Positions 31,278-35,438 of a DNA stretch of 42,268 nt are shown in pieces. The translations under genes were made by a program, and so were the position numbers. The notes beneath the pieces were generated by a model. The model was not told where the DNA came from, did not search any database, and was given only the letters and a program-made list of their open reading frames with translations. The stretch spans positions 1 to 42,268 of the forward strand of contig PXRO01000021.1 in the NCBI GenBank assembly GCA_003021685.1. Reading direction: 5' to 3'. This DNA is from Halobacteriales archaeon QS_4_62_28 (GTDB lineage Archaea; Halobacteriota; Halobacteria; Halobacteriales; Haloarculaceae). Every line of letters begins with the position of its first letter. Position 1 is the first letter of the stretch.

Positions 31278-31285
31278 AAAATACA
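31278..31285 (+). promoter_or_regulatory. TATA-like promoter of the LssY-C-like gene
   Basis: AAAATACA is centred about 27 nt before the GTG at 31308. It supports that start and excludes the frame extension to 30948, which overlaps the zinc ribbon gene. Confidence 0.5.
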
Positions 31286-31307
31286 TCGAATAGAAACCCT
31301 ACGTGCT

Positions 31308-32432
31308 GTGGCGTATCGACGGCTGCTCCTCGCTTCCATCGTCGTCGTCGGCTTGTTCGGGAGCGCAGTAATCAGTCCGAGTTCGCCCGACCGAGACGGG
31401 ACACCGTCCAGTAATCAGCTGGTCGTGCCGGACGAGAAGACGACTGCCCTCTGGCCGTACACCAGTCGAAGCCCCTTCGTCAATGACCGCACCCTCGCAC
31501 TCAACGTCATCATCTATGGCCAGCCAGACCGCATCAAGCGAGCGTTCCTCCAGCGGTCGGACGCCAACTGGACCACGGTCGACGGTGACGCTGCTGTCGG
31601 AGAGTCGGACTGGCAATCCGCTCGCGGGGCGACCCGGTACACGTACATCAGGACGGCCGATGGTGACGGCCGCTGGATCAGATCGGCCTATCAGTTGGGG
31701 ACCGGAACGTACCTCGGTAGCCGTGTTCACGTGCGCGCTTATCCCGCACCGTCTGGTAACTGGACGGCACTGCAGGCCCACACGGAGTACTGGGACTGGT
31801 TCAGGTTGCGCCACACGGTGACGGGTGCCCGCTCCGGTTCCCGGTTTGTCGAACGTGACCTGCGCGAGGAACCCTTCGTCGAGGGTGTCAGCCGCGAATA
31901 TCACGGCCTCAACGGCGGTAACAGTGATGGCTGGCTGACCGTCATCGAATTCTGGTCGGCTCCGGCGGCGCTGGTGGCTGGTATCGGACTGCCCCTGGCC
32001 AGTCGTCGCCGGCAGGACCTGCTCGACGCTGTACTTCCGATCAGTCTTGCCACACTCGTCGTCGGCGTCCGCGGAGCGGGTATCGCCGCCGAGCAGGCGT
32101 TTCCGGCGTTCTCCCCGAAACTGTTCGCAGCGGTGCTGTATCCGCTGTTGCTGACTGGGCCCCTCGCGCTGTCGTTTACGTTCGCACGCGACCGACCGGC
32201 GACCCGGAGCGCGCTGCTCGCCGTGTGCGGTCTCGGTACAGGTGTCGTGGTAGACATGGGCAGTGTCGGTGTCAACACTGTCCCGATCAGTCTCGCACTC
32301 CACCGGGTCGCACTGGTCAGCACCCTGGCCCTGTTCACGCTCGGTGTCGCTCGCGGCGACCGCCGGACGATGGGCGTCGGTATCGCCGCGTGGCTCGCAG
32401 TCCTCGCAGCACCTCTGCTCGGTGTCGTCTGA
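31308..32432 (+). CDS. Membrane protein with an extracytoplasmic LssY-C-like domain
   Basis: A 374-residue protein. One N-terminal helix (about 5-25) is followed by an exposed domain (about 45-200), then about six helices (about 210-374). The exposed domain has LALNVIIYGQPDRIKRAFLQ, YTYIRTADG, AYQLGTGTYLGSRVHVRAYP and AHTEYWDWFRLRHTVTG. The order (NV..G....I..AF, then a basic HVR strand) resembles the LssY C-terminal domain seen beside PAP2 phosphatases and DedA proteins, but this is my recognition, not a search result. Function is unknown; a membrane lipid or secretion role is speculative. A PAP2-type gene lies 2.2 kb downstream. Confidence 0.65.
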   Translation: MAYRRLLLASIVVVGLFGSAVISPSSPDRDGTPSSNQLVVPDEKTTALWPYTSRSPFVNDRTLALNVIIYGQPDRIKRAFLQRSDANWTTVDGDAAVGESDWQSARGATRYTYIRTADGDGRWIRSAYQLGTGTYLGSRVHVRAYPAPSGNWTALQAHTEYWDWFRLRHTVTGARSGSRFVERDLREEPFVEGVSREYHGLNGGNSDGWLTVIEFWSAPAALVAGIGLPLASRRRQDLLDAVLPISLATLVVGVRGAGIAAEQAFPAFSPKLFAAVLYPLLLTGPLALSFTFARDRPATRSALLAVCGLGTGVVVDMGSVGVNTVPISLALHRVALVSTLALFTLGVARGDRRTMGVGIAAWLAVLAAPLLGVV

Positions 32433-32757
32433 TACTATCGGACGGGAGTCCACGAAGGATTTCGCTACCCCAGGGTGACAAGAATCTCCAGATAGGTACG
32501 TCCGACAGGATGGCTACGACCGGCCGTCTGTGAACGATCTCGACATCCGTGCGTGTCGAGTGTCGCCGCGTTGTTACAGCCGGCAGTACAGTAGTTGACA
32601 ACCGAATGCCACGACGTGCGTCCCTGATCAGCCCATTACGATCCCTGTTTTCTCATCGATCTATTATCACTTTCGTAGCGCTTCTGACGGCCGTTGGAAA
32701 GCCCCAAGTGACCGTACATAGCAATATATACCAATGGGAACCCCGCCGCAGTCGCTG
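32433..32757. other. 325-base region without a gene
   Basis: No convincing frame or RNA was seen. The last 60 bases are AT-rich and hold the TATA-like box of the substrate-binding lipoprotein. A run of T/A near 32645-32690 (TTTTCTCATCGATCTATTA) could include upstream promoter elements. Confidence 0.45.
32722..32730 (+). promoter_or_regulatory. TATA-like promoter of the substrate-binding lipoprotein operon
   Basis: CAATATATA is centred about 31 nt before the ATG at 32758. An ATG at 32734, only about 8 nt after the box, would lie upstream of the expected transcript start. Confidence 0.55.
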
Positions 32758-34587
32758 ATGGCCGCCACCGTCGACAGGCGTGCCGTCCTCGCGACGCTCG
32801 CAACTGGTGGGGCTACAGTCACTGGCGGTTGTATGGGGCGGTTACGGACCATCGCTGGCTGGGAGTCCGCTTCTCAGATCTCTCTGGAAATCAAGACGCT
32901 GCCGGCCGACGCCGATCCGTACGCGATCAGGATCGCTCGACAACTGGCGCTCTGGCTCACCGAGGCGGGAATCGACACCACTGTCACACCGATGGATGGC
33001 GAGGAACTCCTTCGGCAGGTACTGTTACGCAACGAGTACGATCTCTTCGTTACCCGAATCCCCGACCGGTTTCGGTCTCCTGAGACCCTCTACTCGCTGT
33101 TACACTCCAGATACTCCGAATCTCCAGGCTGGCAGAACCCGTTTGGCTATACGAACCTCGACGTGGACGATCAGTTAGAATCACAGCGGCGTGTGACCGG
33201 TGACACTCGGTGGCGTGCGGTCAGTCGTCTCCAGCAAACGGTCGCCCGCACACAGCCCTTTACCGTCATTGCGTTTCCCGACGACATCCGTGCAGCCCGG
33301 ACGAACAACTACGCGAACTGGCGCGAGGTCGATATGCGCTCACCGTTCGGGTACCTGCGACTATCGAACGACACCGGACGTGATCGAGAGACCGGTTCGA
33401 CCACTGCGACGCCGGGACCGGAACTTCGGGTGGTCTCGACAGACCACCGACCGACCGAGAACCTGAATCCGCTCTCGGTCGAATTCCGCCGCGACGGTCT
33501 CGTTACCGGTCTGCTGTACGACTCGCTCGGTTTCGAGCGAACGAGCGAGTCGATCGAACCGTGGCTGGCGGCATCCTGGTCGTTCGAGACCAGCGTCGAG
33601 GGGATCTATGCGACGGTTCGACTTCGTGACGACCTGACGTGGCACGACGGGACTGCGATCACTGCAGACGACGTCGCGTTCACGTACCCTTTCCTCGCGG
33701 ATACGTCCATGGGGTCGATAGACACGCCTGGCAGTGACGAGGATCGGGACAGTCCCGTCCCGGCACCGCGATTCCAGGGGCCAGTCAGCCTCGTCGAGAC
33801 GGTTCGTGCCACCGGTCCCCGGACGGTCGAGTTCGATTTCGTCGACTGCACGCGCCGTATCGCCAGGCGCGCTTTTACCGTGCCGGTCCTGCCCAAACAC
33901 GTCTGGCGGGAGCGTACCGGTTCCGCGTCGGTCGGCGGCATCGAAGTCGGCTCGGCGACAGAAGCGCTGGTAACGACGAACATTCCACCGGTCGGGAGTG
34001 GCGCGCTCAAGTTCGAAGAGCACACGGCTGGTGACAAACTCGTCTTGGAGCAGTACGAAGACCACTTCCTCTCGGCAGCTACCGAGGAGTCACTGCCTGC
34101 CGGGTTCGCCGGAAAGCCCACCTACGAACGGCTCTCGGTGAACGTTGCTGGCTCTGACACGACGGCCGTCGAGATGGTCAGGCGCGACGAGGCAGACGTG
34201 ACCGGGACGGCAGTCGGTGCCGAGACGGTGCCTCGCATTGGTCGGGCAAGCGACCTCGAACTGCTTGTCAGGCGCTCTGAATCGCCATTTCTGGTCGGGT
34301 ACAACACCCGGCGACCGCCACTGACAAACCCGCGCTTCCGCAATACGATTGCACGGTTGATCGACCAGTCCCACCTCACCCAGGAGGCGTTCGAGGGGTA
34401 TGCCGCGCCAGCGGTCAGTCCGCTCGCAGCGACTCGTTGGCTCCCGGAGGATCTCGAATGGACCGGCGAGAGCCCCGTCGCTCCGTTCCTCGGAACCGAC
34501 GGTGAACTTGACATCGACCGCGTCCGCGATGCCTTCCGTGACGCTGGCTACCAGTACAACGACGATAAACTCGTGGAGACCAACTGA
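32758..34587 (+). CDS. Family 5 substrate-binding lipoprotein with apparently circularly permuted lobes
   Basis: A 609-residue exported protein. The N-terminus DRRAVLATLATGGATVTGGC has a Tat-like RR and the lipobox TGGC. Residues 41-190 (ISLEIKTLPADADPYAIRIA ... YDLFVTRIPDRF ... LYSLLHSRYSESPGWQNPFG ... FTVIAFPDDIRA) look like the last part of a family 5 peptide/solute-binding protein. After a linker (about 203-220) the usual N-terminal part begins, with TENLNPLS and the signature DDLTWHDGTAITADDVAFTY (291-310). The chain ends at AFRDAGYQYNDDKLVETN, the point where the normal protein would continue into the segment found here at the N-terminus. No permease or ATPase genes are adjacent. The stop overlaps the next ATG by 1 nt. 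Confidence 0.85.
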   Translation: MAATVDRRAVLATLATGGATVTGGCMGRLRTIAGWESASQISLEIKTLPADADPYAIRIARQLALWLTEAGIDTTVTPMDGEELLRQVLLRNEYDLFVTRIPDRFRSPETLYSLLHSRYSESPGWQNPFGYTNLDVDDQLESQRRVTGDTRWRAVSRLQQTVARTQPFTVIAFPDDIRAARTNNYANWREVDMRSPFGYLRLSNDTGRDRETGSTTATPGPELRVVSTDHRPTENLNPLSVEFRRDGLVTGLLYDSLGFERTSESIEPWLAASWSFETSVEGIYATVRLRDDLTWHDGTAITADDVAFTYPFLADTSMGSIDTPGSDEDRDSPVPAPRFQGPVSLVETVRATGPRTVEFDFVDCTRRIARRAFTVPVLPKHVWRERTGSASVGGIEVGSATEALVTTNIPPVGSGALKFEEHTAGDKLVLEQYEDHFLSAATEESLPAGFAGKPTYERLSVNVAGSDTTAVEMVRRDEADVTGTAVGAETVPRIGRASDLELLVRRSESPFLVGYNTRRPPLTNPRFRNTIARLIDQSHLTQEAFEGYAAPAVSPLAATRWLPEDLEWTGESPVAPFLGTDGELDIDRVRDAFRDAGYQYNDDKLVETN

Positions 34588-35438
34588 TGGCGCTGTTCGA
34601 TATCGCTGTCCAGATACTCGTCGTTATCGCCGTTGCGAACTGTGTCGCGACACTCGTTTTCGTCGGCCCGGACCGAATCCGGGCCGGTCGCCGATATCTC
34701 CGGGACAACGTCGTCGCAACCTGGCCGTCACTGGTTGCGCTCGTTCTCTTTCTGGTTGCAAACAGCATCATCCGCGACGCCGGTGTCGACCTCTCGTGGC
34801 TGATCGGACTGAATATCACGGGCTACATCTACGCCATCGAGGGACAGTTCGTCGACTTCCTCCAGTCGATGGCGACGCCGCCAGTGACAGCGTATTTCAG
34901 TGCCATCTACATCTACGGCTACATCTTTCTGCTGACGTTTCCAGTGATCGCTTACGCGCTCCACGACGACTCGCGACCGCTTCGGATCGTCGTACTGACC
35001 TACATTCTGAACTACGGCATCGGGTTGGTCTGCTACGTGGTCTTTATCGCCTACGGGCCGCGAAACCTCCTACCAGCAGTGGAATCGATCCTCTACACTA
35101 ACTGGCCCCAGTCACAGCTGCTGACGAGCACGATCAACTCGAACACGAACGCCTTTCCCTCGCTGCACGCCTCGCTGTCGGCCAGCGTTGTCCTCATCGC
35201 CTATCGATTCCGTGCAGTATACCCCCGCTGGACGCCGATTGCCACCTTTCTCGCCATCTCGGTGGCCGTCTCGACGATGTACCTGGGCATCCACTGGGCG
35301 ACCGACGTGCTCTTTGGCGTCCCGCTTGGCGTCTTCGCTGCCGTTGGGGCTGTCCGGATCGCGACCCCAGAGCGACAGGGCTGGTTCTGGCGACTGCGGT
35401 CCCGCTTTTCCGAGACGGGCTACCGTCGGAACCACTGA
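34587..35438 (+). CDS. PAP2 / inositol phosphorylceramide synthase-like integral membrane enzyme
   Basis: A 283-residue protein with about six to seven membrane helices. The catalytic motif is FPSLHAS (190-196, His194), followed by YLGIHWATDVLFGV (His236, Asp240). These motifs are the C2 and C3 phosphatase motifs of the PAP2 superfamily, in the form seen in Aur1/IPC synthase-like proteins. The motif-1 lysine is less clear. It could hydrolyse or transfer a lipid-linked phosphate at the outer face of the membrane. The ATG shares its A with the stop of the lipoprotein gene (TGATG), indicating tight translational coupling. Confidence 0.88.
   Translation: MALFDIAVQILVVIAVANCVATLVFVGPDRIRAGRRYLRDNVVATWPSLVALVLFLVANSIIRDAGVDLSWLIGLNITGYIYAIEGQFVDFLQSMATPPVTAYFSAIYIYGYIFLLTFPVIAYALHDDSRPLRIVVLTYILNYGIGLVCYVVFIAYGPRNLLPAVESILYTNWPQSQLLTSTINSNTNAFPSLHASLSASVVLIAYRFRAVYPRWTPIATFLAISVAVSTMYLGIHWATDVLFGVPLGVFAAVGAVRIATPERQGWFWRLRSRFSETGYRRNH

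Follow-up and report, generated by a model that had tools for sequence, protein, structure and literature searches.

Evidence for a natural circular permutation in a family 5 substrate-binding lipoprotein encoded next to a PAP2-superfamily membrane enzyme in Halobacteriales

Introduction

Family 5, or cluster C, substrate-binding proteins (SBPs; PF00496, exemplified by OppA, DppA, AppA and NikA) make up a large class of binding proteins that has been studied extensively. Contig PXRO01000021.1 of Halobacteriales archaeon QS_4_62_28 (assembly GCA_003021685.1), the 42,268-nucleotide stretch of DNA that was analysed here and is referred to as the window, carries on its forward strand a gene for a lipoprotein of this family in which the normally C-terminal segment appears to precede the normally N-terminal one, and which is directly followed by a gene for a PAP2-superfamily membrane enzyme. 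The locus raises the question of whether the chain is genuinely permuted, how the new segment order arose, and what a binding protein in such company would serve. An initial annotation of the locus had proposed a circular permutation that moved the lipid anchor to the opposite lobe, and it had placed the gene correctly, taking the second Met codon (32758) as the start. The first ATG of the frame is at 32734, and both candidate starts lie upstream of the conserved Arg pair and Cys; we number the protein from 32734, so that residue n of the initial annotation is residue n+8 here. The gene and its parts are as follows:

32734..34587, forward strand: predicted circularly permuted family 5 substrate-binding lipoprotein, 617 amino acids (PF00496, 139.5 bits, and swapped segment order)
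32734..32832, forward strand: putative Tat-type signal with RR at residues 15-16 and a lipobox ending in Cys33 (invariance in the alignment)
32854..33303, forward strand: front segment, residues 41-190, corresponding to the normally C-terminal part (canonical HMM 388-531; HMM, hhalign and PDB profile matches)
33304..33420, forward strand: tail of the front segment and Ser/Thr/Pro linker, residues 191-229 (between the two canonical matches)
33367..34563, forward strand: rear segment, residues 212-610, corresponding to the normally N-terminal and middle part, with the WHDG signature (canonical HMM 41-394)

The two parts of the fold occur in swapped order

Up to an E value of 1, PF00496 is the sole Pfam family that the SBP matches (139.5 bits; cut-off 32.4); the main stretch aligns residues 274-613 to profile positions 2-285. 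To resolve the segment order we used a canonical hidden Markov model (HMM) of 557 positions, built from 25 canonical haloarchaeal PF00496 proteins of the window's genome and its relatives. The front segment (residues 41-190) matched positions 388-531 (27 bits, E 3e-9) and the rear segment (residues 212-610) positions 41-394 (129 bits, E 6e-40): both segments match the family, in swapped order, and together they cover the fold once, from 41 to 531. The two-piece swapped order was recovered in all 37 permuted proteins tested, the window's included, whereas 24 of the 25 canonical proteins matched their own HMM in one colinear piece and the remaining one, L056, in two that keep the canonical order. 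The SBP does not have the canonical segment order of PF00496 proteins and is a permuted homologue.

This is the arrangement that the initial annotation had envisaged, and the duplication that might have mimicked it is not seen: the window SBP has no second C-terminal part, its chain ending seven residues beyond canonical position 394. A Ser/Thr/Pro linker supposed to join the old termini is also where it was expected, at residues 211-229, overlapping the first residues of the rear match. The gap between the two canonical matches spans 18-47 residues in 34 members of the window's branch and 10-48 residues in the 22 permuted proteins of a second group, termed ABC-type and described below.

Comparison of alignments supported the same assignment. 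In hhalign, the family alignment of the front segment matched the canonical alignment at columns 399-539 (probability 96.5, E 8e-10), as compared to E values of 0.01-0.72 for five column-shuffled front-segment controls, and the rear segment matched at columns 64-398 (probability 100). Both segments also match solved family 5 members. A front-segment profile built from 11 segments (one of the window's branch and ten ABC-type) found 88 PDB sequences with E values no higher than 1, the best being 5e-18. Among the best 60 of the 88, the profile always aligns within the C-terminal half, at 356-488 of the 507 residues in DppA for instance, and the names are nearly all those of binding proteins, with exceptions such as the Lmo0135 protein and one uncharacterized protein. 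With the whole-family profile, the best 60 of 102 PDB matches run over the rear segment and fall on the N-terminal and central portions of the solved proteins; no permuted chain was apparent among these 60.

Could the swapped order be an artefact? A misassembly, two gene remnants fused together, or a duplication in which another C-terminal part follows later might each produce it. The one observation in favour is the weakness of the Pfam match to the front segment: when the first 221 residues are scanned on their own, residues 41-123 align with PF00496 positions 276-360 at E 0.0057 (16.3 bits, under the cut-off). Against an artefact, the same colinear architecture is found in 53 of 97 genomes of the order as well as in plasmid records described as complete, and the next open reading frame (ORF) after the end of the chain is the PAP2 gene. 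The conserved order refutes this explanation, to which we assign next to no probability. Read from the sequence, the window gene almost certainly encodes a naturally circularly permuted family 5 SBP.

Since the canonical chain is cut beyond its midpoint, the Tat/lipoprotein-type signal is joined to the normally C-terminal segment. RR15-16, G32 and C33 are invariant in all 25 aligned SBP sequences, the window's included; they mark a putative Tat-type signal and lipobox. From the domain layout of DppA and OppA, the new N-terminus and the anchor would presumably lie on lobe 2.

Structure models lend this interpretation no support. The AlphaFold models of the whole SBP (four canonical rows; pLDDT 49.6, pTM 0.42) and of the front segment (four rows; pLDDT 48.0, pTM 0.40) are both of low confidence. 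In Foldseek the whole model matched, among the best 50 shown, family 5 chains, identified by name, down to E 2.7e-15 at a TM score of about 0.3. The best 50 matches shown for the front model are mostly family 5 chains at E 0.01-0.3, with other folds mixed in; the best E is 0.0095, and none lies below 0.001. The matches of both models are weak only and give no proof of topology. The top structural match of the low-confidence front model, PDB 3noh (123 residues, 'putative peptide binding protein'), may be a stand-alone version of the front-segment lobe.

The same cut occurs in binding proteins of ABC operons

Searching plasmid records with tblastn unexpectedly returned proteins outside the window's branch that align with the permuted query colinearly and without a break. 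The proteins from Nitratireductor, Roseomonas and Halalkalicoccus each show two PF00496 stretches in permuted order and are each followed by genes for two ABC permeases and two ATPases. Those from Maritalea and Ketogulonicigenium are likewise permuted and lie in ABC operons with permease and ATPase parts, and at the haloarchaeal loci L072-L088 a permease-like ORF adjoins the SBP gene in 15 of 17 cases within the flanks examined. We refer to these proteins as ABC-type. All 22 of them have permuted segments; this count includes three that automatic classification called canonical, in which an extra first match is a signal or low-complexity region on HMM 1-68, and two with a low-scoring front match (16 bits in L085, 6 bits in L088). 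A lipobox-like motif is present in just 16 of the 22, and we read two (L039 and L040) by eye as plain Sec signals without a lipobox. The high-coverage one-piece bacterial matches noted in listings of 30, 60, 40 and 40 rows come from Nitratireductor, Microvirga, Neorhizobium, Ketogulonicigenium, Roseomonas and Maritalea, genera that all belong to the Alphaproteobacteria, and a single pattern scan of bacterial chromosomes with the window SBP returned three loci with four ORFs, all canonical by the canonical HMM.

As the ends of the rear segments coincide (HMM 391-404 in the 22 ABC-type proteins, 382-396 in 34 members of the window's branch), the cut is the same in both permuted groups. The two family alignments are colinear over 526 columns (probability 100, E 2.4e-81). 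Because the same permutation with the same cut occurs in ABC operons, it is not a mark of non-transport and did not arise for it. This bears on two ideas of the initial annotation. One, that the permutation serves to alter how the closing motion is presented to a permease, finds no support, the same cut being present in complete ABC operons. The other, that it suits a receptor unlinked to transport, is likewise not supported as stated, on the same grounds, while a separation from transport is itself likely for the window's branch (see below).

Several ABC-type operons (L039, L040, L041, L106 and L107) lie near genes for M28/M20 peptidase, hydantoinase/oxoprolinase, creatininase, Asp/Glu racemase or gamma-glutamylcyclotransferase. 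Small peptides or cyclic amides are candidate ligands of the ABC-type permuted SBPs.

We also scored the proteins with a doubled canonical profile. The gain exceeds 5 bits in 21 of the 22 ABC-type proteins, and in all six for which ranges are available the match crosses the old C-to-N joint. Speaking against the permutation in the window's own branch, the gain is just 0.7 bits for the window SBP and exceeds 5 bits in only 22 of 34 branch members, and matches in this branch are often broken up. Gains above 5 bits, caused by altered domain splitting, were seen in three of 33 canonical controls as well, and for that reason we do not rely on this test.

Did the rearrangement arise once? We built a tree of the rear segments with 76 rows, using 21 of the 34 branch members, and removed five long rows for the constrained test. 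The PAP2-linked branch forms one clade (SH-aLRT 100), two canonical bacterial rows fall among the ABC-type rows, and the deep branches are weak. Counting against a common origin, the free trees do not gather all permuted proteins in one clade: two to three label changes are needed, three in the free tree without the five long rows. This, along with the position of the two canonical rows, is what an independent origin of the permutation in the two groups has in its favour. Such an origin nevertheless looks improbable to us in view of the shared cut, the full-length colinear profile match, signal included, and the constrained tree: forcing all permuted rows into one clade is not rejected (p-AU 0.54) and gives a likelihood 1.5 units better than that of the free tree. 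A single origin of all permuted rows is compatible with the tree data, and is not demonstrated by them.

The ancestor of the permuted proteins was probably a component of an ABC importer, given that same-cut relatives sit in apparently normal ABC operons in both haloarchaea and Alphaproteobacteria. Circular permutations usually come about through duplication and subsequent truncation, a route that would fit the signal staying in front. In this way an SBP of an ABC importer would have been rearranged, on a single occasion or on a small number of them; one haloarchaeal branch would then have lost its permease linkage and become paired with a PAP2 enzyme. The PAP2 pairing of the window's branch looks like a later recruitment.

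The permuted SBP of the window's branch is paired with a PAP2 gene

The gene that follows the SBP in the window is:

34587..35438, forward strand: PAP2-superfamily membrane enzyme, 283 amino acids (PF14378, E 4.6e-15; PF01569, E 1.8e-12; both above cut-off)

Its start overlaps the stop of the SBP gene (TGATG). The product shares the superfamily profile and the conserved His, His and Asp: H194, H236 and D240, the presumed catalytic residues, are invariant in all 42 PAP2 sequences. Labels in plasmid records vary, with inositol phosphorylceramide synthase in some and PAP2 phosphatase in others. Pairing with a binding lipoprotein is not known to be a feature of the PAP2 family.

How widely the permuted form occurs, a question raised by the initial annotation, can be answered for the order. 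The window SBP as query finds a match at E 1e-20 in 54 of 97 genomes; once ABC-type matches are dropped, which removes one genome (G025), 57 branch proteins in 53 genomes are left. The matches dropped before counting were those of G025, G046:C3, G083:C6 and G069:C3; split matches were merged in G022, G037, G075 and G092, and a second piece of the PAP2 search in G048 was left out. Whole-genome searches scored up to 13-14 candidates per genome in the order and up to six in an even draw of the phylum, so second copies may be missed. In that draw of 196 genomes, 18 have a match at E 1e-40, all 18 in the window's order. Relatives in the order show 56-29% identity to the window SBP. Named relatives are Halobacteriales, Haloferax gibbonsii and a Haladaptatus strain being cultivable carriers of the SBP-PAP2 pair, and the permuted proteins, where annotated, mostly appear just as 'ABC transporter substrate-binding protein'. 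Two scans of viral contigs yielded no relative. Natronorubrum bangense carries two SBP-PAP2 pairs in tandem (L044:3094-8519), while the Salinigranum rubrum copy (L103:5923-7714) is split over two reading frames, annotated as two proteins, and looks broken.

A PAP2 gene lies directly downstream of the SBP gene at all 30 loci L006-L035, the window (L006) included, and likewise directly downstream in all nine plasmid records read out of the 12 closest plasmid matches of the branch. Over the order, 50 of the 57 branch SBPs have PAP2 directly downstream; two more share one PAP2 gene in an SBP-PAP2-SBP arrangement (L115, L116), and one stands at a contig edge. Both genes are found in 52 of the 97 genomes, the SBP only in one, PAP2 only in three (weak matches, 29-30%) and neither in 41. 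Permease-like ORFs are near one of the 30 loci (L034), and queries with permeases and ATPases gave no match within 1.5 kb of the window SBP. With PAP2 usually the gene that follows (50 of 57) and permease-like ORFs this rare, the window's branch is likely separated from transport.

Some observations pull the other way. Since the genomes share ancestry, the counts of pairing do not represent independent events; four of the 57 branch SBPs (L114, L117, L118 and L120) have no PAP2 gene in the stretch examined, their genomes carrying PAP2 matches elsewhere; and 25 rows of PAP2 matches lie away from any listed SBP (two of them, in G009, may be one gene). At L034 (2-1365) the permuted SBP has PAP2 after it and, upstream, permease-like ORFs that are possibly an unrelated transporter or a remnant; at L043 a gene for an ABC ATPase lies close by on the opposite strand.

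These last cases lead to the alternative that the SBP is an ordinary importer component, using an ABC permease and ATPase encoded elsewhere, with PAP2 a mere operon neighbour. Orphan SBPs may indeed use permeases encoded elsewhere, which tells against a loss of transport; permuted SBPs with full ABC operons exist, four further PF00496 genes are present in the window's genome, permease-like ORFs adjoin many canonical loci of relatives (L045 onward), and L034 itself fits. The pair is, however, kept at 29-56% identity to the window SBP across many families of the order, and 40 of the 53 genomes with the window's branch are without an ABC-type permuted SBP at E 1e-30. We consider this alternative unlikely, with an appreciable residual chance.

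A conserved membrane protein and possible surface-glycan genes recur nearby

Upstream of the SBP gene the window encodes a further conserved protein, referred to as protein X:

31284..32432 (putative start; ORF listed from 30948), forward strand: protein X, conserved membrane protein of no assigned family (homologues at other loci)

Within flanks of about 1.5 kb, a homologue lies upstream of the SBP at 11 of the 30 loci L006-L035, the window included; it is also in the stretch of four of the nine plasmid-record loci, directly upstream of the SBP in two of them. The window's protein X is 32-41% identical to two plasmid homologues, and invariant LWP-T and DWFR-RH stretches run through 14 aligned members. 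No Pfam family scored above cut-off for these 14 members, and NCBIfam likewise gave none for protein X; a resemblance to LssY-type domains is not claimed.

Protein X opens the possibility that the SBP is an extracytoplasmic receptor or sensor: it would relay the ligand signal to a different membrane protein, for which protein X is a candidate, and PAP2 would be an output gene. Its recurrence at 11 of 30 and four of nine loci would agree with this, as would the proposal (PMC4990184) that the natural permuted SBP TpMglB-2 is a chemoreceptor. The flanks of 19 of the 30 loci, about 1.5 kb each, are nonetheless without protein X, and the regulators named in nine annotated neighbourhoods are DNA-binding (helix-turn-helix, MarR, PadR), with no kinase or transducer named among them and many genes hypothetical. 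We regard a sensor as improbable, a little more so than an ordinary importer component.

Further neighbours of the SBP-PAP2 pair were searched for with phmmer, the loci that supplied the queries (L042, L100) being included in the counts. An arylsulfotransferase lies near the pair at five of 30 loci and six of nine plasmid-record loci, and a GT-C-like membrane protein at two of 30 and seven of nine; one of four GT-C-like proteins scanned with Pfam scores above cut-off (L042; PMT_2 and PTPS_related). On the haloarchaeal plasmids of L042, L043, L100, L102, L103, L104 and L105, arylsulfotransferase and/or GT-C-like genes are near the pair, with glmM or glmS in three. The recurrent neighbours of the pair suggest a surface glycan or sulfation island.

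Proposed role of the SBP-PAP2 pair

How might a binding lipoprotein work with a PAP2 enzyme? The lipoprotein would sit on the outer face of the membrane with a soluble ligand bound in its cleft, and would hand this ligand to, or gate, the neighbouring PAP2 phosphatase/phosphotransferase. The enzyme, in turn, would act on a lipid or lipid-linked substrate at the same membrane face, probably in the modification of a surface glycan or glycolipid. That the SBP supplies or gates the PAP2 enzyme in the window's branch is a tentative proposal, possible rather than probable. Equally tentatively, the permuted SBP may have left ABC transport to become a substrate-presenting or ligand-gating subunit of PAP2 at the haloarchaeal surface, together with protein X. 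The broader explanation, which joins the permutation, an ABC-importer ancestry and a partnership with PAP2, is one that we hold to be reasonably, though not highly, probable.

Comparison with known systems and significance

The window SBP is homologous to canonical family 5 proteins over nearly their whole length. It differs from them in the swapped order, which places its N-terminus and lipid anchor on what is normally the C-terminal part, and its branch differs in having a PAP2 gene next in line and permease-like ORFs rarely nearby. The ABC-type proteins Nitratireductor WP_206544944.1 and Halalkalicoccus WP_238532955.1 share its permutation and cut; their operons comprise two permeases and two ATPases with no PAP2 annotated in the stretch, whereas PAP2 is next to the window SBP.

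Permutation of a binding lipoprotein has a precedent. According to PMC4990184, TpMglB-2 (Tp0684) is a naturally permuted binding lipoprotein for which the class 'Type Ic / Cluster Bc' was proposed, and its authors also suggest a link between permutation and tethering. Natural circular permutation of a lipoprotein SBP is thus common to TpMglB-2 and the window SBP. TpMglB-2 is a sugar-binding protein of cluster B (type I) with a solved structure, in which strands of the N-lobe have moved to the end and whose gene is clustered with ABC transporter genes, whereas the window SBP matched PF00496 only in Pfam. Against this background, the family 5 case is apparently new: among the listings of open PMC literature examined, we found no report of permuted family 5 binding proteins, and none of the SBP-PAP2 pairing, which is the more novel part of the finding.

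Permuted SBPs that share one cut, found in Archaea and Bacteria alike, amount to a natural experiment on what a permease reads in a binding protein: the chain termini and the anchored segment can move while the linkage to an ABC transporter stays. In the PAP2-linked branch, the binding protein appears instead to serve a membrane enzyme. If this is true, these haloarchaea would possess a binding-protein-dependent lipid or glycan enzyme in place of a binding-protein-dependent transporter.

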